This document shows, in pieces, positions 2,653-23,673 of a stretch of DNA of 50,883 nt (position 1 is the stretch's first letter; the number at the start of each line of letters is the position of its first letter). The position numbers were made by a program, and so were the translations under genes. Origin of the DNA: a virus. The notes under the pieces are model-generated. The model made no database searches. It was not told where the DNA came from and saw only the letters and a list, made by a program, of their open reading frames with translations. Location of the stretch: the IMG/VR virus record IMGVR_UViG_3300044960_000579, positions 1 through 50,883 of that record, one strand, 5' to 3'.

Positions 2653-2813
2653 CGCAATACCCTCATGAAGGAACGGGAGTGTGGGGACGTTGATGTCCCC
2701 ACACCAGTTGCTCACGTCTTGCGGCGCTCACTCTTGCATGGGCTCCCTCGCACGCCATGGTCCTCCTGAATCCCGCCGGGTCGCTGCCAATCTGCGGTCC
2801 ACGCGAACGCTAT

Positions 2814-3945
2814 GGCTCGCTCAACTCGTCCGATCCCGTTCTGTCCTCGGCTCGCTCGCAATGCACGGTCCCCTGGAGCCACCGGCTCACGCTTCGTCCG
2901 AGGTCCTCGCTGACCGCTCGGTTCGCGCGAAATTTCCGGTCCACGCCACACATGTGGCTCGCTCCCATTTTCGGTACGCTCCCTGCCGCACGACTCGCTC
3001 GCATGAGACGGCCCCCTAGCCGCGCTCGACTCACTGCCCCTGGTCGGTACACGCCGGACACCCGGTTCGCTGCATCGCCCCCGGTCCACGCATCGATCTG
3101 GGCTCGCTCACTTCAATCGGTGCACTCCTGTCAACCGGCTCGCTCGCACGCCCGTTCAGGTCGTAGTCCACGACTCGCGCTTTCGGTACGGCCCCCCTCG
3201 CCTCGTGTGGCTCGCACCACTAGTCCGGCCCACTTCCACACCACGGCTCGCGCCTTCAGTACGGTCCACTCTCCCACTATGGCTCGCTCGCCCCGTTGAG
3301 GTTCACTCAGGAGTCGAGGCTCGCTGACGAACATCGGTACCCTCACACCCCAATGGCTCGCGCCAAAGTTTCGGTCCGCTCGCCGTTCGTGGCTCGCACA
3401 GAAACGCCGGTGCTCTCACGCCCACTGGCTCGCTCACAAATGCCGGTACGCACAACATTTGCGACTCGCTAACCCCTGGCCATTCCATCGACCGTCGCGG
3501 CTCGCTCCAGCATCGCTGGTCCCCGCAGCAAACTCGGCTCGCTCGCAAGTTTTTGTCCACTCGCCGTTCGTGGCTCATTCCACATGTTGCGGTCCGCGCG
3601 GTTGATCCAATTCGCTCCACTCATGCCGGTGCACTCGGTCGATATGGCTCGCTCCCTGGTCACCGTGCACTCCCTGGGACGTGGCTCGCTCACTCACGCC
3701 GGCCCTCGTTGACCACGACTCGCTCACTGACCTCGGTGCTCTCGTGAATGACGGCTCGCTCGTCGCAACAGGTTCACTCCAGCTCGGCGACTCGCTCCCA
3801 TTCACCGGTACTCTCAGGCCACGAGGCTCGTTCTCGCGCAACGGCCCACGCATCGACGTCAACTCGCTCCCATCCGCCGGTACCCTCAGGCCAAGAGGCT
3901 CGCGCAGTTTCGCTGGTCCACGCAGCATGTACGGCTCGTGACAAC
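2814..3945. repeat. Degenerate 36-bp tandem repeat array (left part)
   Basis: About 32 head-to-tail units with a period of 36 bp (observed 35-37). Each unit has two 18-bp halves: GGCTCGCTC plus nine variable bases, then a CGGTNCNCTC-type core plus eight or nine variable bases. Core starts are readable at 2814, 2849, 2884, 2956, 2992, 3101, 3137, 3172, 3209, 3245, 3281, 3318, 3355, 3391, 3427, 3463, 3499, 3536, 3572, 3646, 3683, 3753, 3789, 3825, 3861, 3897 and 3933. Indels of one base break every reading frame, so the array is not coding as it stands. It continues at 5131-5300 beyond the TnpB element. Function unknown. Confidence 0.85.
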
Positions 3946-3968: not shown

Positions 3969-5093
3969 TCAGGAAACCGCAACCATCGTCGCGGTGAGCT
4001 CCTGACGGCGGTGCCCCCGCCGAAGAATGTTCTTGGCCGCGTTCAGATCGCGGTCACCAACGTAGCCACAGGAGGCACAGTGATACACCCTGTCAGACAG
4101 CGTGAGCCGCACGTCGGGCAAACATCCACAGCAGCTACACGCCTGCGTTGTGTTGTGGGCGTCCACCGCGACCACCTGCACCCCGGCCCCCTCCGCCTTG
4201 GCTGCAAGGATCGCGAGAAACTGTGCCCATCCTGCGTCGTGAACCGACCTCGCCAGACGCGTTCGGCCAAGGCCGGCAACGTTCAACGCCTCAACGTAGA
4301 TCGTGCCGTACCTATCAACCAGCCTCTTCGCCACCTTGTGGTGAAAGTCCCGTCGCTGGTTCACGACCTTGACGTGGCAACGAGCAAGTCGTTCCCTGAC
4401 CTTGCGTCTCCGATTGCTTCCGCGCTGGCAGCGAGAGAGTGCGCGCTGAGCACGACGCAGTTTCGCCTGCGCCCGCCGCGCGAAGTGTGGTGTCTCAACC
4501 CGCTCACCGTCGGACGTGACGAGAAACGATGTCAATCCCAGGTCGATGCCTACCTCTGGCCGATCGGTTGCCAGCGGCGGAGCGTCGCCCAAGTCGCAGG
4601 AGACAACGACGAACCAGCGACCGGCTTCGCGCTTGAACGCAACGGTCTTGATCGTGCCTTGAACTGGCCGGTGGTATTTGACCTTGACCGTTCCAACGTT
4701 CCAAAAATAGACGCGCTTGCCGTGGAACTTGCAGCCATTGCCGTGGGTAGAAAATTCGACGGTGTCGAAACGGCCAGGTCCCTTGAACCTCGGATAGCCC
4801 GGTTTTTCGCCCGCTTTGACGCGACGGAAGAAGGCCTTGAACGCACGATCCAGCCGGCGCAGTGTCGCTAGACACGACGAATGGCTACAAACAGCCAGCG
4901 ACTCGTCTTCGCGGCGAATTTCCTTCAACTCAGCGCATTGGTCGAAGTACGTGATCGAAACCCCGCGTTGCCAGGCCAGGCGCCGGTGTTCGAGCGCGGC
5001 GTTGTAAAGCTGGCGATGCGCTTCGAGCATCACGCTCATCATCTCAGCTTGTTTCCGGTTTGGGTAGAGACGGTACTTAAAGGAGCGACGCAT
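3969..5093 (-). CDS. tnpB: TnpB RNA-guided nuclease
   Basis: Transposon-associated RuvC nuclease of the family ancestral to Cas12. It is 374 residues, a full-length size. The N-terminus (KYRLYPNRKQAEMM) is the typical OrfB_IS605 start. RuvC-I is VGIDLG (D184), RuvC-II IYVEALN (E268) and RuvC-III DRDLNAAKNI (D349). The zinc ribbon uses C319/C322 and C339/C342. All three catalytic acids are present, so it should be active. Family members cut DNA matching the guide next to an element-specific motif and promote retention of the element. The gene is flanked by repeat array, not by phage genes. Confidence 0.93.
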   Translation of the reverse strand: MRRSFKYRLYPNRKQAEMMSVMLEAHRQLYNAALEHRRLAWQRGVSITYFDQCAELKEIRREDESLAVCSHSSCLATLRRLDRAFKAFFRRVKAGEKPGYPRFKGPGRFDTVEFSTHGNGCKFHGKRVYFWNVGTVKVKYHRPVQGTIKTVAFKREAGRWFVVVSCDLGDAPPLATDRPEVGIDLGLTSFLVTSDGERVETPHFARRAQAKLRRAQRALSRCQRGSNRRRKVRERLARCHVKVVNQRRDFHHKVAKRLVDRYGTIYVEALNVAGLGRTRLARSVHDAGWAQFLAILAAKAEGAGVQVVAVDAHNTTQACSCCGCLPDVRLTLSDRVYHCASCGYVGDRDLNAAKNILRRGHRRQELTATMVAVS

Positions 5094-5130
5094 CTCCTGG
5101 CCTTTCTGTCAGCAGTGTGCATCCCGATCA

Positions 5131-5300
5131 CGACCCGCTCAAGATTCTGGTTCTCACGACTCACTCCCGCGCATCGGTACTCCCAACGGCGCGCTCTCCG
5201 TTGCCAGCTCGTTCATCAGGTTCGGCACTCTCGATCATTTACCAACTCGCTTCCATTTGTCGGTTCCCTCTGTCCAGACGACTCGCTCTCGTGCCTATGT
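5131..5300. repeat. Degenerate 36-bp repeat array (right part)
   Basis: Continuation of the 2814-3945 array on the other side of the TnpB element. Cores CTCGTTC, CTCGCTTC and CTCGCTC start near 5207, 5245 and 5281, 36-37 bp apart, with CGGT-type half motifs at 5175 and 5261. Units are more eroded near the element. The array ends just before the stop of the next gene at 5318. The 5094-5317 interval contains no convincing gene. Confidence 0.7.
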
Positions 5301-5317
5301 CCCCCCGACAATGACGG

Positions 5318-6319
5318 CTAGCTACCCCGGCGACGGCGACGCCTTTTTTCAGTATTGAGTGGCCAGCCTGGTGGTGCAATCAGATCCGTGTGTCCCAAAT
5401 GCGAGATCGCGAACGGTGCGACCACCGGCAGCCCATTGCTCTCACGCAGGACCTGCTGGAAATGCGCCAGGAACAGTTTCACGGCATAGCGCCGGGAACG
5501 CAGCTCAATCCGCCCCGGTGGCAGCATGCCGGCCTCGTACCAGGAACGCGTCGCCTGGTCCTGGATCCGGCGCTCGGCCAGGGTGCGTTCGGCAATCTCC
5601 CGGTACTGGCCGTTCTCGTTGCGCCAGATTTCGAGCGCTTTGCGTTTGGCGTAGATGTGCCCGTAGTAGCATTCGGGTCGCCGGTGGAATTTCACAAACG
5701 AGTCACCAGCTTTCCAGCAGATCACCTTCAGCCGGGCGTTGTAGGGGCGCGTCTGGCCTGGCAACCAGACCATTTGGGGGTTGAGGCCGGCGAACGACCA
5801 GACATTACCGGCTGTGACCGCGCGCTCGGGGTCGATGTGGGCGAGCAGCCCGGCGGCGATCACCGGTCCGACGCCGTACTGTGACAGTGCCCAGACACCG
5901 GCCTCGTATTCCTCGGCCCAGCTCTTCATCAGCCGGACGAGGCCGGCCTCTAACTGGATGAATTGTTTCGCCAGCCAGGAGGAGAGTTTGTGTGGTTCAC
6001 CGGCCACAGCAGAGGCACGTGCAGCGTTGCTGAGCCGGATGCGCATTTTTTGAATCTGCTCGTAAGTATCGACGTAGTAACGCATATCGCCGCGACCGAG
6101 CGTGCGCGCAGCATCGACGATATCAGCCGTGAGGCGTTCGATCAGGTCGGCAGACGGCGCGACGACCAGGTCGTGATCGTCATCAGCGACCGGCTCGGGG
6201 GCGTCGTCAATCTCCAGGTCGAGATCGACGGGCAGGCCGCCGGTCTCGGGTGGCGCGCCATTGGCGTGGCTCAGCCGCGGCGCATAGGGCCGGTCCTCAG
6301 CAGTGCGATACCTACGCAT
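5318..6319 (-). CDS. Helix-hairpin-helix protein resembling IS110-type Transposase_20
   Basis: A 333-residue protein whose centre (GVGPVIAAGLLAHID through WSFAGLNP, about residues 149-182) matches the helix-hairpin-helix DNA-binding domain found at the C-terminus of IS110/IS116 transposases. The N-terminal DEDD catalytic domain of those enzymes is absent, and no IS ends are visible, so this is probably a phage DNA-binding protein rather than a transposase. The C-terminus is very basic (KRRRRRRGS). GGGGAGG lies 7 nt before the ATG. Role unknown. Confidence 0.6.
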   Translation of the reverse strand: MRRYRTAEDRPYAPRLSHANGAPPETGGLPVDLDLEIDDAPEPVADDDHDLVVAPSADLIERLTADIVDAARTLGRGDMRYYVDTYEQIQKMRIRLSNAARASAVAGEPHKLSSWLAKQFIQLEAGLVRLMKSWAEEYEAGVWALSQYGVGPVIAAGLLAHIDPERAVTAGNVWSFAGLNPQMVWLPGQTRPYNARLKVICWKAGDSFVKFHRRPECYYGHIYAKRKALEIWRNENGQYREIAERTLAERRIQDQATRSWYEAGMLPPGRIELRSRRYAVKLFLAHFQQVLRESNGLPVVAPFAISHLGHTDLIAPPGWPLNTEKRRRRRRGS

Positions 6320-8931: not shown

Positions 8932-9354
8932 CTAGCCCCTCTCAAACGAATGAGCTATTGCCGTCGCAATGCTGTCGAGCATCTGTTCGCTCGTCGGGCG
9001 TCTCGGTGGCCAGATATCGCCGAATCTGTCGCCTTCCCACCGGGGCACCGCATGAACATGCAGGTGCAGCACCGTTTGGGTCGCGGCTCTGCCGGCCGAT
9101 GTGATGATGTTCATGCCATCTGGAATGAGCGCCTCTCGAATGGCGAGCGCCACCTCTCGAACGGCCAGCCATAGGTCAGGCACGTCCGATGCCGGGAGTT
9201 CGAAGAAGTTTTCGTAATGCCGTTTGGGGATGATCAGGGTGTGCCCTAACGTTGCAGGTTCAAGCGGGAAAAAGGCGATATGCGACCCCGTCTCATACAC
9301 GACACGTGCTGGTGCGTTGCGATGCACAATCTCACAGAACGGGCATTGAGCCAT
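8932..9354 (-). CDS. HIT-family nucleotide hydrolase/transferase
   Basis: Histidine-triad protein of 140 residues, the usual size. The catalytic motif HLHVHAVPR (H97, H99, H101) is intact, and an N-terminal C4-x2-C7 pair with CPFCEIV is typical of the branch that binds zinc. HIT enzymes hydrolyse nucleoside phosphoramidates or dinucleotides. The ATG at 9354 has GGAGG upstream. HIT genes are unusual in phages; it may adjust nucleotide pools or remove nucleotide adducts, which is inference. Confidence 0.9.
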   Translation of the reverse strand: MAQCPFCEIVHRNAPARVVYETGSHIAFFPLEPATLGHTLIIPKRHYENFFELPASDVPDLWLAVREVALAIREALIPDGMNIITSAGRAATQTVLHLHVHAVPRWEGDRFGDIWPPRRPTSEQMLDSIATAIAHSFERG

Positions 9355-9544
9355 CAATGACCTCCGAAGGAATTACCGCAGTTCGCGCGTCGTCGGGCTC
9401 GTAGCGCCACGCACCCCCCTCGCGATATGTGGCTGACTCGCAGCACGTGAAACATGGCGCTACGAGCCTCTGGACGCGCGACAGGGGCATTCCTGACGTT
9501 GTTGACCTAGCAGTGTACGTGCACCGTGTCCGGACAGTGGTCAT
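9332..9544 (-). CDS. Hypothetical 70-residue protein
   Basis: The ATG at 9544 overlaps the stop of the upstream nuclease gene as ATGA, which decides the start. The product contains VAPCFTCCESATYREGGAWRYEPDDARTAV. This small Cys-rich block resembles a CxxC knuckle and may bind metal. Its end overlaps the HIT gene by about 23 nt. No family recognised. Confidence 0.45.
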   Translation of the reverse strand: MTTVRTRCTYTARSTTSGMPLSRVQRLVAPCFTCCESATYREGGAWRYEPDDARTAVIPSEVIDGSMPVL

Positions 9545-12963: not shown

Positions 12964-12988
12964 TGCTATCGTGTCCTTCCCTCGCTGG

Positions 12989-13014
12989 TGGCGCCGGAGA
13001 TGTCTCCGGCGCCA
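12989..13014 (-). other. Strong hairpin in the exonuclease leader
   Basis: Perfect 12-bp stem TGGCGCCGGAGA/TCTCCGGCGCCA with a TG loop, 25 nt upstream of the exonuclease ATG and immediately downstream (minus strand) of pentamer array I. There is no T-tract, so it is not a classic terminator. GGCGCC hairpins also precede the other genes of this cluster. Confidence 0.6.
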
Positions 13015-13039
13015 GCATGAAATGAAGATTCCGCGCCCC

Positions 13040-13915
13040 GTCTCGCCCAGCCGGGCCTAGCCAAGCCCTGCCACGCCGAACCTCGCCGCGCCATGCCTCG
13101 ACTGCCGTGCCGTGCCGGTCCCAGCCCAGCCATTCCGGGACACGCCACGCCGCGCCCAGCCCCGACTGCCATGCCACACCGGGCCAAGCCACGACTGCCT
13201 TGCCCCGCCTAGCCAGGCCCCGCCCGGCCATGCCCCGCCATGCCGTGCCATGACTGCCCTACCAGGCCCCGCCCAGCCCGGCCGCGCCGAGTCGCACCTT
13301 GCCCTGCCAATCCGTGACTGCCACGCCTGGCCTCGCCGCGCCATGCCAGCCCATGCCATTCCACGCCACGACTGCCTCGCCGATCGCTGCCATGCCGCTC
13401 CACGCCGCGCCCAAACCTGCCGCGACTGCCTGGCCGATCCGCGCCCTGCTCCGCCCTGCCGTGCCCCGCCCACCCCAGCCGTACCGAGACTGCCCAGCCC
13501 CGCCTTGCCCGGCCATGCCAGACCAGACCTCGCCCCGCCCAGCCATTCCATGCCGCGCCACGCCGTGCCGCGCCTCGACTGCCACTCCGCGCCGCGACTG
13601 CCATGCCTGGCCCGGCCACACCGCGCCACGCCCCGCCCCGCCATGCCCTACCCCGCCGTGACTGCCTTGCCGTGCCGAACCCCGCCGCGCCGTGCCCAGC
13701 CGTGCCGTGCCGCGCCATGCCCCGACTGCCACGCCTAGCCGCGTCGAGCCGTGCCCGGCCTAGCCGATCCTTGCCTGTCCGTGACTGCCGGTCCTTGCCA
13801 CACCAGGCCCCCCACGCCTCGCCATGCCACGCCGCGCCGGGCCCTGACTGCCGTGCCCCGACTGCCTCGCCGGGCCGGGCCCTGCCCAGCCGTGCCTAGC
13901 CTTTCCGCGCCGTGT
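13040..13915. repeat. Pentamer repeat array I (NNGCC with GACTGCC punctuation)
   Basis: About 870 bp of five-base units of the form NNGCC (GGCNN on the minus strand), with the two N positions variable. At intervals a GACTGCC resets the phase by four bases. Its starts are 13100, 13164, 13193, 13252, 13316, 13370, 13424, 13488, 13577, 13596, 13660, 13724, 13783, 13846 and 13860. Nearly all gaps equal 5n+4, most often 64 (12 pentamers plus 4). All frames stay open because the units rarely form stops, so long open frames here are not genes. No terminator or promoter was seen inside. Confidence 0.85.
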
Positions 13916-13934
13916 CTGGTCGCGTGACAGCGTG

Positions 13935-14651
13935 TCACGCGACGCGCTCGTTGCCGGTGACACCGGCGACGTTCGCCAGCCATTCGTCGATCGCCGCCCG
14001 CAGCAACCGAAGCTCCTCGACAAATTTCTGGTCCTGCGGGTTCGCCGTCCGCGCCTCTAGTTGCAGCCGCAGTTGTCGCGCTGTCAGCAACAAGGACGAG
14101 CCCGGCGCGATGTCGTGCGCGTGTTCCTGCAACGGACTGAGTTTCAGCCCAGAAAGGTGCACAAAACTCCGTTTCAACGGGATCGGCTCGCCGGTTTTCT
14201 GCGAGACCGCAATGCGCACGCGCAACGCTTGGACTTTCTGCTCGGGAACCTTCAGAACGACCGAAATCGACTTCTGGTCGAGCCCTGCACGGCTCAGCAG
14301 ATCGATGCACCGAATCTGGTCGATCCGATCCAGCCGCCGCCCGTGCGTTGCGTTCTGCGCGACCGCATCGGCGATCAAATCTGCCTCGGATGGATACGTC
14401 CGCAGAATGACATCAATCGCCGCCGTATCGCCTACGACGCGCCGATACGCCCGGACGCGATGCCAGCCGTCAACAATCCGCAATGTCTTCGCATCAACGA
14501 CCGGCGGCGGTAGAATTGCTCCAGTTCCCAGGGCATCGGCGAGCCGGCGAATATGATCGTCGTCAACCGCGTGTCGCGGGTAGATACTGGAATCTTCAAT
14601 GAGCAATGCGAGCGGAACCGTTTCCTTTTTGTCTGGAATTTGCCTACTCAT
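13935..14651 (-). CDS. ParB-like nuclease-domain protein
   Basis: A 238-residue protein with a ParB/Srx-type N-terminal domain: LALLIEDSSIYPRHAVDDDHIRRLADAL, then LRIVDGWHRVRAYRRV near residues 57-72, with DGWHR in place of the ENIQR/GERR box. A helix-turn-helix-like middle (ISVVLKVPEQKVQALRVRIAVS) follows, then a helical tail. ParB-fold phage proteins bind or nick DNA, or use CTP to slide. Being flanked by two pentamer arrays, it is a natural candidate to bind them, but this is speculation. Confidence 0.8.
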   Translation of the reverse strand: MSRQIPDKKETVPLALLIEDSSIYPRHAVDDDHIRRLADALGTGAILPPPVVDAKTLRIVDGWHRVRAYRRVVGDTAAIDVILRTYPSEADLIADAVAQNATHGRRLDRIDQIRCIDLLSRAGLDQKSISVVLKVPEQKVQALRVRIAVSQKTGEPIPLKRSFVHLSGLKLSPLQEHAHDIAPGSSLLLTARQLRLQLEARTANPQDQKFVEELRLLRAAIDEWLANVAGVTGNERVA

Positions 14652-14675
14652 ATTTCACGAATCCTTTGCTTCCGA

Positions 14676-14689
14676 GCGCCCTCTGGCGC
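14676..14689 (-). other. GCGCC-CTCT-GGCGC leader hairpin, copy 1
   Basis: Five-bp stem with a four-base loop, 25 nt upstream of the ParB-like start and between it and pentamer array II. The same hairpin occurs before the two paralogous genes at 16248-16261 and 17497-17510. Confidence 0.55.
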
Positions 14690-14754
14690 GTCCGATACCG
14701 GTTGTGATTGGCGAGTGCTCTGTGGCGGTCCTCGCGCTGTCATGACGTCCGCCA

Positions 14755-15482
14755 TTGCTACGCCGTGCCCTGCCGTGCCGATCCGGGCCGAACCTCACCG
14801 TGCCTGGCCCAGCCATGACTGCCGCGCCTGGCCGGACCCGGCCCCGCCTCGCCCCGCCATGCAACGCCCGGCCTGACCGTACCGTGCCAGGACTGCCTCG
14901 CCCCTGCCAAGCCATGCCGCGCCAAGCCGCGCCCGGCCGCGACTGCCAGGCCTCACCATGCCGGGCCAGACCGCTCCTGGCCTCCCCCTGCCATACCCGG
15001 CCGCACCAGACCTCGACTGCCACGACTGCCTTGCCGTGCCCTGCCCCACCATGCCCCTCCAAGCCATGCCTTACCGCGCCGCGCCTCACCGCGCTATGCC
15101 GTGCCATGACTGCCTTGCCTCGCCCCGCCGTGCCCCGCCGCGCCTGGCCTCGCCGTACCACGCCGGACCGCGCCACGACTGCCTCGCCGGGCCGGTCCTC
15201 GCCAAGCCCTGCCACGCCATGCCCAGCGTCTCCGTGACTGCCTCGCCGTGCCGCACCGGACCGTTCCCCGCCCCGCCTGACCCGGCCGCGCCCAGCCTAG
15301 CCGGACCGCGACTGCCTCGCCGTGCCACGCCATGCCATGCCGGGCCGAGCCCTGCCCTGCCATGCCGATCCGCGACTGCCCAGCCCCGCCTAGCCGCGCC
15401 ATGCCCTGCCCGGCCAAAACCTGCCGCGACTGCCTTGCCGCTCCGGGCCTCACCCGACCGCGCCACGCCATGCCAGGCCCCG
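14755..15482. repeat. Pentamer repeat array II
   Basis: Same NNGCC structure as array I. GACTGCC starts at 14817, 14891, 14941, 15015, 15024, 15108, 15177, 15236, 15310, 15374 and 15428; gaps are 74, 50, 74, 9, 84, 69, 59, 74, 64 and 54, all but one equal to 5n+4. The block 15008-15118 is nearly identical to 16472-16582 in array III, so parts were copied between arrays. The stretch holds no gene. Confidence 0.85.
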
Positions 15483-15485
15483 CCG

Positions 15486-16217
15486 CTACCGGTTGCCCCG
15501 CGTCGCGAGCGAGTATGCCGCCAGCACTTCGCGCGCGAGGCCATCGAAAGGCTCTGGCGTCGCAAGCGCCGCAGCCTGCGCCTCAGCGGTCGATTGCTCG
15601 ATCAGTTCGAGCAGGCGCGGATCGTCCGGCGCGACCACCTCGAACGTGCCGAAGTCACCGCCCGCCCACGGACAGAACAGTCCGATGCCGACCGAGCGAC
15701 CGGCTTCGGATAATGCCCTGATGGCGGTTCCGACCGAGACGAGCTGCTGCAGGGCCTGCACGTTGAGCCGCATGCCCCAGCGCGGGAAGATGGCCCGCGA
15801 TCGGACATACAGCCGGTCATCCCATTTCGCAAACGAGATGTGGATGCGCGGCAGGCCGTACAGCGGGAGTAGCTCCCGACCGAACCGCACGCACCGCTTC
15901 AGCCGCGCCGGGGGGACTTCATTCAAGCGCTCGCCGGCCCGCATGGTAGGCAACCAGTATGCAGACGCGCTAAATCCAAGCAGCGTCGGGCTGCCATCCG
16001 GCATTTTGTAGACGGACTCGCGGTAGTCTTCGATCGGATCGTCGATGATGACGACGTTCCCGACCCGAACCGTATTCCTGCGGCGGAAGCATTCGATAAC
16101 TCCGCTGTTAGCTATCCTGCCTGATAGCAGCGGTGTTAGACCAAGGATGCCGACCTGGACGACGTCGATCCAGGTTTCCTTGTCAACGACGGTAGCCTGC
16201 TGCAGTTGAGCTTGCAT
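15486..16217 (-). CDS. Conserved phage protein, paralog A
   Basis: A 243-residue protein paralogous to the gene at 16687-17463: VGILGLTPLL, DYRESVYKMPDGSPTLLGF, LLPLYGLPRIHISF, TRAIFPRW-like SRAIFPRWGM, and SEAGRSVGIGLFCPW..GDFGTFEVV. In related phage proteins the last block reads GVGEWRPEKxGxFG; here EWRPE has been lost, so this copy is diverged. The function is unknown; such genes often sit near RecT-type recombinases. ATG at 16217 has GGAGGAAACG upstream. Confidence 0.75.
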   Translation of the reverse strand: MQAQLQQATVVDKETWIDVVQVGILGLTPLLSGRIANSGVIECFRRRNTVRVGNVVIIDDPIEDYRESVYKMPDGSPTLLGFSASAYWLPTMRAGERLNEVPPARLKRCVRFGRELLPLYGLPRIHISFAKWDDRLYVRSRAIFPRWGMRLNVQALQQLVSVGTAIRALSEAGRSVGIGLFCPWAGGDFGTFEVVAPDDPRLLELIEQSTAEAQAAALATPEPFDGLAREVLAAYSLATRGNR

Positions 16218-16247
16218 CGTTTCCTCCAATTGCGACCCCTGTCGCTT

Positions 16248-16261
16248 GCGCCCTCTGGCGC
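16248..16261 (-). other. GCGCC-CTCT-GGCGC leader hairpin, copy 2
   Basis: Hairpin 30 nt before paralog A. A 23-bp stretch around it is identical to that around copy 3 (17495-17517), although the two genes have diverged, so the leader is conserved more than the proteins. Confidence 0.6.
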
Positions 16262-16279
16262 CGAATCAAACACCGGTCA

Positions 16280-16640
16280 TGGTCTTGCCGCGCCGTGCCG
16301 GCCCCGCCGTGCCCGGCCTCGCCTCGCCACGCCCTACCGGGCCAAGCCATGCCGCGACTGCCATGCCAGGACTCGCCGCGCCGCGCCTCGCCAGGCCGCA
16401 CCTCGCCCCGCCACGCCTCGCCAGGCCGTGCCTCGGCTGCCACGCCCGGCCTGACCGCGCCCGGCCGCGGCAGACCTCGACTGCCACGACTGCCTTGCCG
16501 TGCCCGGCCCCACCATGCCCCTCCAGACCATGCCCTACCGCGCCGCGCCTCACCGCGCCACGCCGTGCCACGACTGCCTCGCCCCACCCGGCCTCACCGC
16601 TCCCGGCCACGCCATGCCGTGCCGTGCCGTCACTGCTATG
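16280..16640. repeat. Pentamer repeat array III
   Basis: Third and shortest NNGCC array. GACTGCC starts at 16355, 16479, 16488 and 16572, with gaps of 124, 9 and 84, all 5n+4. The segment 16472-16582 matches array II almost base for base, including the double GACTGCC and the following 84-bp interval. It lies between the two paralogous genes; no gene inside. Confidence 0.85.
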
Positions 16641-16686: not shown

Positions 16687-17463
16687 CTATTGCCCCGGCA
16701 GCGTCGGCTGCATGCCGCGCGACTCAGCACTCTCGAGGAACGACTCAAGCAGGCTGGCCGTCTCATCGTCGTAGGGCTCCGCGTCACGCAGCGCCGCAGC
16801 CTGCGCCTCAGCGGCGGATTCCGCCATCAGCTCGAGCAGGCGCGGATCATCGTCGGGAACGATTTCGAACATTCCGAACGCACCAGCACCCTTCTCTGGG
16901 CGCCATTCGCCAACGCCGACCGTGCGACCGCTCGCGAAGAGCAGCCGGCTGACGGCGACCGGCGTAATCAACGGCGCAACCGCCTGGACCTCGAGGATCA
17001 TGCCCCAGCGCGGGAAGATGGCGCGAGTGCGGATATCCGGTGTCCGGGCGGGATCAGAATTCCGAACCACGCTCATGTGCAACTTCGGAACGCCGTACAG
17101 TGGCAGCAAATCACCGAGAACGGTCACCAAACGTTTGATTTTGGCGCCGGTAACGCCGGGAATGTCCGATGCTGCCGTCACCATCGCGCCCTTGAACGCC
17201 GACGCCAGGAAACCGAGCAGTGTCGGTCCACCGGCTGGAAGGACATAGACTGAATCGCGAAATTCGCTTATCGGGTCGTGCTTGAGGGTGCTCGCGCGTT
17301 GCGCGCGGTTTTTCGCCGGCGGCGGGTTCAGCAGGGTTTCCTTCGCCTTGCGGCTCATCCGGTTCACGATGAGCGGGCTCAGACCCAAGATGCCGACCCG
17401 CAGCACGACGGTTTCGATATTGGGAATTTCGATAACGTCTTGAGTTTTCCGTGGAGTAGGCAT
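16687..17463 (-). CDS. Conserved phage protein, paralog B
   Basis: A 258-residue protein with the full family pattern: VGILGLSPLIVNRMSRKAKE near residue 24, EFRDSVYVLPAGGPTLLGFLASAFKGAMV, LYGVPKLHMSVVR, RTRAIFPRWGMILEV, FASGRTVGVGEWRPEKGAGAFGMFEI. The glycine-rich GVGEWRPEK..GxFG block is the hallmark. No enzymatic motif recognised. The ATG at 17463 is preceded by GAGGAAA; an upstream GTG lacks support. It directly follows the recT gene, suggesting a role in recombination or DNA protection (inference). Confidence 0.75.
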   Translation of the reverse strand: MPTPRKTQDVIEIPNIETVVLRVGILGLSPLIVNRMSRKAKETLLNPPPAKNRAQRASTLKHDPISEFRDSVYVLPAGGPTLLGFLASAFKGAMVTAASDIPGVTGAKIKRLVTVLGDLLPLYGVPKLHMSVVRNSDPARTPDIRTRAIFPRWGMILEVQAVAPLITPVAVSRLLFASGRTVGVGEWRPEKGAGAFGMFEIVPDDDPRLLELMAESAAEAQAAALRDAEPYDDETASLLESFLESAESRGMQPTLPGQ

Positions 17464-17496
17464 GTCTATTTTCCTCGTTGCGGCCACTGCCGCGTT

Positions 17497-17510
17497 GCGC
17501 CCTCTGGCGC
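17497..17510 (-). other. GCGCC-CTCT-GGCGC leader hairpin, copy 3
   Basis: Same hairpin and flanks as copy 2, 34 nt upstream of paralog B. Unlike the other copies it is preceded by the recT gene rather than a pentamer array. Confidence 0.6.
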
Positions 17511-21297: not shown

Positions 21298-21651
21298 TTA
21301 CTGTTCGGCCTGACGCCAGCGCTGTGCGACGCGCCACGTGACCCAGCCCTGGCCGTCGCAGAGGGTGCAGGCAAACCAGCCTTCACCCCCGCAGGCCGGG
21401 CAGGCAACCGGTGTCGCTGGGTCCGCCGGGGCCGTCTCGCGCCTTTTCGGCTTGGGAACCGGCCGGGGTGGCCGGTTGCGGGCTGCCCGCCGGTAGCGTT
21501 CGTCAATACAGCGTTCCCGGCGTGAATGTGGGACTGGCCATGCCGGGGCATCCTGACACCACGGGATACCGACGCTGGTATCCCGTGGTTTTTGTTGTGC
21601 CGGCCGTATCGAGATTTCCCCAGATTTTCCCCTGTTCCAGGGTATTGACAA
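21298..21651 (-). CDS. DnaJ-type zinc-finger protein
   Basis: The C-terminal part, CPACGGEGWFACTLCDGQGWVTWRVAQRW, is a two-knuckle CxxCxGxG zinc finger as in DnaJ and small phage proteins. The N-terminal part is basic and disordered. The start is uncertain: the open frame runs through the rightward terminator and into promoter P1, and only a TTG is available at 21651. The true start is probably internal and non-ATG, or the gene is a remnant. Confidence 0.45.
   Translation of the reverse strand: MSIPWNRGKSGEISIRPAQQKPRDTSVGIPWCQDAPAWPVPHSRRERCIDERYRRAARNRPPRPVPKPKRRETAPADPATPVACPACGGEGWFACTLCDGQGWVTWRVAQRWRQAEQ
21559..21596 (+). terminator. Intrinsic terminator after the CI-like gene
   Basis: 12-bp stem CCACGGGATACC/GGTATCCCGTGG, loop GACGCT, then TTTTTGTT. 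Strong rho-independent signal for rightward transcription, separating the repressor unit from P1. Confidence 0.9.
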
Positions 21652-21673
21652 ATTGCACGCTATGTGCTATTCT
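21645..21673 (+). promoter_or_regulatory. Early promoter P1 with spacer operator
   Basis: TTGACA (21645-21650), 17 bp, TATTCT (21668-21673). The spacer contains the near-palindrome GCACG-CTA-TGTGC. The same layout recurs at P2 and P3, including the upstream GGGTA. Confidence 0.9.
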
Positions 21674-21685
21674 ACAGGCAGATGA

Positions 21686-21706
21686 GGGGGCTGGGAGGCA
21701 GCCCCC
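21686..21706 (+). promoter_or_regulatory. GGGAGGC-loop leader hairpin, copy 1
   Basis: Stem GGGGGCT/AGCCCCC with loop GGGAGGC, a few bases after the predicted P1 start site, followed by AGGAACGGAGGAAC and the ATG of the first early gene. Confidence 0.75.
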
Positions 21707-22483: not shown

Positions 22484-22494
22484 TGCCAGGGGTA

Positions 22495-22523
22495 TTGACA
22501 AACTGCACGCGGCGTGCTACTAT
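22495..22523 (+). promoter_or_regulatory. Early promoter P2 with spacer operator
   Basis: TTGACA (22495-22500), 17 bp, TACTAT (22518-22523). The spacer holds the perfect palindrome GCACG-CGG-CGTGC. Confidence 0.9.
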
Positions 22524-22534
22524 ACAACCAGAAC

Positions 22535-23570: not shown

Positions 23571-23612
23571 AAAATTGTGAGATTTTCATAGATTTTTCCA
23601 TGGTCTGGGGTA

Positions 23613-23641
23613 TTGACAAACTGCACGAGACGTGCTATTCT
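23613..23641 (+). promoter_or_regulatory. Early promoter P3 with spacer operator
   Basis: TTGACA (23613-23618), 17 bp, TATTCT (23636-23641), spacer palindrome GCACG-AGA-CGTGC. Upstream GGGGTA and downstream ACAGGCGGATGAGGGGG match P1 closely. Confidence 0.9.
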
Positions 23642-23654
23642 ACAGGCGGATGAG

Positions 23655-23673
23655 GGGGTTGGGAGGCAGCCCC
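23655..23673 (+). promoter_or_regulatory. GGGAGGC-loop leader hairpin, copy 4
   Basis: Stem GGGGTT/AGCCCC (one G-U pair), loop GGGAGGC, then AGGAACGGAGGAACGG before the ATG at 23702. Confidence 0.75.

Follow-up and report, generated by a model that had tools for sequence, protein, structure and literature searches.

VIPR (Viral Interference Programmable Repeat) was described in a preprint of April/June 2026 that centres on Escherichia phage SUSP1, the type locus (type II), and on Pseudomonas fulva (bioRxiv 2026.04.26.720920; PMC13142463). The preprint presents a CRISPR-related system of RNA-guided DNA recognition, whose genes reside chiefly in phages, proviruses and plasmids, with a phage-encoded RAMP protein that has an RRM core and a glycine-rich loop. 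Its vrRNAs are intergenic, flank the vipr gene and alternate GGY with NN (YNNGG), with 9-16 repeats per guide; the NN pairs read the target with one base skipped, usually the wobble base, and the targets lie in coding DNA (PMC13142463). Here we analyse a stretch of 50,883 nucleotides of viral DNA (IMG/VR record IMGVR_UViG_3300044960_000579, positions 1 to 50,883; hereafter, the window), in which three arrays of degenerate pentamers lie between positions 13040 and 16640. Because these arrays stand beside genes of a RAMP family that is homologous to the SUSP1 Vipr, we identify the region as a VIPR locus.

The preprint also reports that targeting through NN was demonstrated for SUSP1, that some VIPRs target other VIPRs, that VIPR loci carry an accessory vap gene and that the tree comprises seven VIPR types, among which array architecture differs, staggered and other forms included. 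In the SUSP1 clade, vrRNAs are separate RNAs of ~100 nt with an invariable 3' tail (PMC13142463). The arrays of the window look functional, and the locus is a new individual of this known, very recent system, and its notable trait is an altered duplicate of the Vipr protein. The initial annotation, which worked from the raw sequence, held that the arrays belonged to no known repeat class; this was correct until April 2026 and no longer is since VIPR was posted. The locus was found independently, by its array alone, and provides an independent check of the VIPR code.

Two proteins related to the SUSP1 Vipr

The window encodes two members of the family:

16687-17487, minus strand: vipr1, 266 residues, RAMP fold, phrog_4652 (E 3e-13), canonical glycine loop GRTVGVGEWRP
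15486-16229, minus strand: vipr2, a diverged paralogue in phrog_4652 with 43% identity to vipr1, glycine loop changed to GRSVGIGLFCPW

The AlphaFold2 model of Vipr1 (predicted local distance difference test 91.2) found its best PDB matches by Foldseek among the Csm/Cas7 RAMPs of CRISPR systems. There were 67 PDB matches at E <= 1e-3, and the 50 listed were all CRISPR RAMP subunits or Cas7-11/gRAMP. At the sequence level, the profile of the phrog_4652 family matched PDB 36pp, the Vipr protein of SUSP1, at E = 8.5e-19, and this profile search gave no significant similarity to PDB chains other than Vipr. The family hidden Markov model (HMM) likewise recognised SUSP1 agp039 (4.7e-27), to which GGTNN repeats are adjacent in that phage, and hhalign of the family against agp039 gave a probability of 98.9 (E 1.9e-17). 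No Cas model in Pfam, PADLOC or NCBIfam matched the window Viprs.

With the RAMPs of class 1 CRISPR systems (Csm3/Cas7, Cmr, type VII Cas7), which were the top structural matches, Vipr1 shares the RRM fold and the glycine-rich loop. The locus differs from class 1 CRISPR in having no palindromic repeats or spacers and no other Cas gene set, and in a register of 5 rather than 6 nt. Neither a CRISPR array of identical repeats and unique spacers nor a cas gene set was present in the array region, where the neighbouring genes are those of RecT, an exonuclease and a ParB-like protein.

Structure of the arrays

The three arrays are as follows, the minus strand being the RNA sense:

13040-13917 (13045-13901 in the repeat statistics), minus strand: vrRNA array A1, about 14 guides
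14755-15490 (14762-15484 in the repeat statistics), minus strand: vrRNA array A2, about 12 guides
16280-16640 (16287-16628 in the repeat statistics), minus strand: vrRNA array A3, about 5-6 guides of GGCNN units

On the DNA the unit is NNGCC, with a period of five in which GCC is fixed and NN nearly free. Identity at lag 5 was 0.577 in A1, 0.561 in A2 and 0.582 in A3, compared with 0.35-0.37 in 1000 dinucleotide-preserving shuffles of each array (z 14.9, 13.2 and 9.0, respectively). The pattern GCC..GCC..GCC occurs more than 120 times inside the arrays; the plus strand has two further occurrences outside them, and the minus strand has none. The neighbouring genes are all on the minus strand, so that the transcript would read (GGCNN)n, and over 356 GGCNN units the information content of positions 1-5 was 1.87, 1.45, 1.07, 0.13 and 0.03 bits. 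These values bear out the claim of the initial annotation that five-base units keep GCC and vary the other two bases; its emphasis on fixed phase and free N positions was also justified, and this property matters.

Parsing by dynamic programming resolves the RNA into repeated blocks of the form GTCNN(GGCNN)nGGCA. The window holds ~30 such guides in total, mostly of 10-16 units, and they adjoin directly at GGCA-GTC junctions (TGCC on the plus strand), with no spacer between them. The motif GACTGCC, which had been noted as punctuation at a spacing of 5n+4, indeed keeps this spacing in 24 of 27 intervals. It consists of a TGCC unit after NNGAC, that is, a unit with a one-base linker (GGCA on the RNA), and the 5n+4 phase arises because TGCC is a four-base unit. 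More generally, the punctuation is a TGCC tetramer, of which GACTGCC is one version; GCCTGCC is the commoner version in other phages. The favoured interval of 64 bp is common in A1 alone (5 of 14 intervals); moreover, the score is as high at lag 59 as at lag 64, so that 64 bp is simply 12 units plus 4. A2 and A3 have in common a diverged segment of 170 nt (84% identity). The folding energy of the array RNA equals that of shuffled sequence, and an Rfam search of the array gave no match.

Linkage between arrays and the vipr family

Array-pattern scans of IMG/VR returned 87 loci in one version and at least 120 in another, and a pattern scan of bacterial genomes returned 110 stretches, about half of which are chance or simple repeats by a density criterion. 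Relatives of the locus comprise more than 100 IMG/VR contigs and 27 mycobacteriophages. The viral loci share one grammar, with 2844 two-base linkers and 185 one-base linkers, 161 of the latter being T, and their GC content ranges from 0.53 to 0.75. Relatives keep the grammar and carry other NNs. Unrelated sequence in related phages had been named as an outcome that would speak against an organised element, and the comparison gave the opposite result.

Gene and array were also traced separately. In INPHARED, tblastn revealed a phrog_4652 relative in 27 phages of Mycobacterium and 5 of Gordonia. Searching independently with the DNA of A1 recovered 27 phages of Mycobacterium, and gene and array occur together in 27 Mycobacterium phages. 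In Mycobacterium phage Quico, for example, the array occupies the gap beside the vipr-family gene. An iterative HMM search placed the vipr family in 156 loci, nearly all of which had been retrieved by the DNA pattern alone. Conversely, among 177 array loci retrieved only by DNA pattern, 124 contain the family gene, 32 end before the gene could appear, and in 21 no such gene could be detected within the examined stretch. These 21 loci, with clear arrays in L009, L012, L040, L060, L076, L206, L212 and L217 among others, may be incomplete stretches, distant Vipr types or orphan arrays.

The orientation is invariant: wherever gene and array lie within 1.5 kb of each other (158 of 158 pairs), GGC is on the strand that is sense for the gene. 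In 126 cases the array is 3' of vipr, directly or after one gene of ~450 bp. When loci were found by the protein only, all three viral ones had a sense-strand array directly after the gene, and 8 of 12 genome loci had a clear sense-strand GGY array, with none in antisense.

Guide composition and candidate targets

If the wobble base is skipped, the NNs of a guide should resemble codon positions 1+2, on either strand. In 936 guides from 182 loci, 86% fit codon positions 1+2 (47% best in sense, 38% best in antisense), compared with 34-38% for simulated targets with skips of 0-3 and random phase. The division into sense and antisense goes by guide, beyond what within-array shuffles give (z 7.7). 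For the window guides alone, the codon-1+2 sense model was ahead of a phase-free model by 16-17 log units.

Direct target search in our own 5-Mb set gave few matches. The best of them joined a guide from a prophage of Mycobacterium szulgai (L153) to the vipr gene of a phage contig (L225:7827-7859), with 11/11 units and 22/22 bases at skip 1 and in wobble phase. Judged from this sequence match, a VIPR may here be directed against another VIPR. No target of the M. szulgai guide was found among 297 genomes of its genus. Likewise, guides within the window showed no self-targeting above shuffles, and short decoded peptides had no tblastn match in INPHARED.

Two window guides can be decoded as a protein motif:

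15031-15110, minus strand: 16-unit guide; codons minus the third base read [IM]T[IM]A[DE]AA[KN][IM][FL]G[IM]G[RS]T[KN], a helix-turn-helix motif
16495-16574, minus strand: diverged copy of the guide at 15031-15110, reading VTVA[DE]AA[RS][IM]LG[IM]GRT[KN]

Jointly they read [IV]T[IV]AEAA[KR]I[FL]GIG[RS]T[KN], which matches Pfam HTH_17 (E 0.006-0.008), and the differences between them are mostly conservative codon changes. Order-scrambled versions and the other decoded guides gave no match. It is suggestive that both guides decode to a helix-turn-helix of the excisionase/regulator type, the ambiguous residues having been picked by eye.

Gene order of the locus

The genes and arrays follow the order RecT, vipr1, A3, vipr2, A2, ParB-like, A1, exonuclease, and the arrays are 2-59 bp away from the vipr genes. 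This agrees with the initial annotation, which had placed all three arrays between genes of one recombination cluster. Further features of the locus are:

13935-14651, minus strand: ParB-like protein, phrog_1033 (E 1e-11), between A1 and A2
17497-17510, minus strand: hairpin GCGCCAGAGGGCGC before vipr1
16248-16261: copy of hairpin GCGCCAGAGGGCGC before vipr2
14676-14689: copy of hairpin GCGCCAGAGGGCGC before the ParB-like gene
12978-13018 (ends approximate), minus strand: a hairpin of different sequence (GGCGCCGGAGA/TCTCCGGCGCC), which precedes the exonuclease gene on its A1 side

The ParB-like protein is a candidate VIPR accessory protein (vap) on the evidence of its position. The order vipr, ParB-like, array recurs in a second locus (L232), the only other one in which a ParB-like relative was found beside an array; none of seven phage loci retrieved by the ParB-like protein has an array. 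The window has the character of a phage, with genes for a terminase, a major head protein, tail proteins and an endolysin.

Weighing the VIPR reading against its alternatives

We estimate a probability of about 0.93 for a phage-encoded VIPR locus with guide-RNA arrays, whose RAMP subunits would read DNA through NN and repress rival phages or prophages. Several results weigh against it. In the 5-Mb set, skip-1 matches numbered 19, compared with 10-15 for order-shuffled guides (E < 0.02), which is a modest excess; since order-shuffled guides explain most of it, the signal is mostly one of composition. The helix-turn-helix decoding involved picking residues at ambiguous positions and concerns one pair among ~30 guides. 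In IMG/VR, exact gapped scans gave 0 matches with the helix-turn-helix guide in versions of 16 and 12 units, and 0 with a run of 10 units from the guide that A1 has at 13495-13579. The 10-unit helix-turn-helix version did lead to two related helix-turn-helix genes, in frame, with at most 26/32 over the merged guide. Exact gapped patterns in IMG/VR revealed no natural target for any of the window's guides. In addition, the window guides show no distinct 3' tail between them, unlike the SUSP1 vrRNAs. As array architecture varies among VIPR types, such a tail does not define all VIPRs, and the dense, tail-less form may already be listed among the array types of the preprint (PMC13142463).

The nearest of the four ideas in the initial annotation was a structured RNA. 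The arrays do appear to be an RNA element, and a scaffold RNA bound by Vipr, with NN devoid of target information, would also account for the strict RNA orientation and the RAMP fold. This alternative is nonetheless improbable: NN fits codon positions 1+2 guide by guide, on a strand that differs between guides, NN targeting was shown for SUSP1 in the preprint (PMC13142463), and shuffled sequence folds as well as the array RNA, which points to a guide and not to a fold. Even less likely is that the arrays are a DNA track on which the ParB-like protein, encoded between A1 and A2, would bind or act in segregation, in spite of the same neighbour in L232. More than 120 loci, in dozens of phages, link arrays to the RAMP family, most of them with a different intervening gene or none, and array-less loci of the ParB-like protein are on record, as described above. 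A DNA track, moreover, needs neither a fixed orientation relative to transcription nor codon-like NN; the ideas of a DNA-shape element or a recombination substrate likewise leave the 158/158 orientation and the codon-like NN unexplained.

Neutral, microsatellite-like expansion of a GC-rich pentamer would fit the tandem units and the duplicated A2/A3 segment, and we give it a negligible chance. The units are not identical copies, given that GGC is kept while NN is near-random, the same grammar is found in unrelated phages of 53-75% GC, and the orientation is constant (158/158); the linkage of arrays to vipr refutes this explanation. An equally negligible chance is left to protein-coding repeats. 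Frames of 150-250 residues are open through the arrays and some phage records annotate them, as in the N-terminus of Philus gp52. However, each TGCC unit shifts the frame, the genuine genes alongside have normal codon-position GC, and a period of five with free NN produces open frames in several frames and on both strands. The open frames are thus not a coding signal, and the initial annotation's own test, expression of these frames under codon constraint, does not count against an RNA element. In Mycobacterium phage Philus, gp52 (L328:2264-3247) starts with MAGMARHGAAWQGMAGRGEAW, a translated array fused to a real Vipr, and in phage ByChance gp39 (L327:5053-5211) is array sequence annotated as protein.

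Proposed mechanism and a possible heteromeric VIPR

The VIPR reading implies a sequence of events that we model on the preprint. Transcription of the arrays, together with the minus-strand genes around them, would yield an RNA built from GGC(Y)NN pentamers, and processing would make each stretch between GGCA-GTC junctions, typically of 10-16 units, one guide. Vipr proteins, with their RAMP/Cas7 fold, would align along the RNA and grip the GGY of every unit. The NN pair would be left free to read DNA, one base per unit being skipped, usually the codon wobble, and binding of the complex would repress genes of competing phages or prophages. By this analogy, the ~30 guides and two Viprs of the phage probably serve to switch off genes of rival phages.

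The locus of the window and that of SUSP1 both have a homologous phage RAMP and sense-oriented tandem GGY/NN repeats beside its gene, and the window guides conform to VIPR in length (10-16 units, versus 9-16) and in codon-1+2 NN composition. Unlike SUSP1, the window encodes a pair of vipr paralogues, of which one has a changed glycine loop, and has three dense arrays whose ~30 guides are joined by GGCA-GTC instead of separate tailed RNAs of ~100 nt. The candidate vap is ParB-like here versus agp038 there, and the repeats have GGC where those of SUSP1 have mainly GGT (PMC13142463).

Where relatives show G[VI]G[ED].R, the loop of Vipr2 reads GIGLFCPW; the E/D..R found in practically all Vipr relatives is gone, and the fold signature is retained. 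Two vipr genes occur together in about five loci only. Other loci with two different vipr-family genes are L311, L313 and L144; the L311 copy at 1035-1676 has the loop GLSTYRPRFG, nearer to the SUSP1 Vipr, and the other L311 copy has GIGEGRP. Tentatively, and with the odds against it, we consider that the locus could be a heteromeric VIPR, in which Vipr1 would form the backbone and Vipr2 a specialised subunit (cap, cleavage or recognition of the GGCA-GTC junction). If so, a heteromeric VIPR would read a compact array of ~30 guides without tails, and the locus would offer a present-day instance of the RAMP duplication by which CRISPR is proposed to have arisen from VIPR. In any case, the locus displays arrays of ~30 guides together with a duplicated Vipr. 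The VIPR reading also accounts for unannotated GC-rich pentamer regions in well-studied mycobacteriophages of Cheoctovirus, such as Quico, Saal and Philus, where function can be tested in laboratory strains.

Other RNA-guided systems and elements of the contig

A TIGR-Tas RNA-guided endonuclease is encoded at 5318-6319 on the minus strand (NCBIfam NF052498, 156.7 bits, cut-off 100), with a degenerate TIGR-like array of 18/36-nt periodicity beside it, at about 2735-3940 and 5130-5310. TIGR-Tas (PMC12045711) resembles the VIPR locus in that a phage encodes an RNA-guided system whose tandem array is degenerate; it differs in its protein family and in units of 36 nt made of two 18-nt halves. Between both parts of the TIGR-like array lies a TnpB gene (3969-5093, minus strand; NF040570, E 4e-86), as if a TnpB element had inserted into it. 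One phage contig hence combines three RNA-guided systems, namely VIPR, TIGR-Tas and TnpB.

Elsewhere, a HIT-family protein (8932-9357, minus strand) is classed by PADLOC as close to ThsC of Thoeris (E 2e-16), but its fold is that of a common hydrolase. Finally, near-identical promoter-like repeats (TTGACA...TATTCT) with a common leader, CAGGAACGGAGGAAC, precede small genes at 21611-21705, 22490-22532 and 23579-23673.

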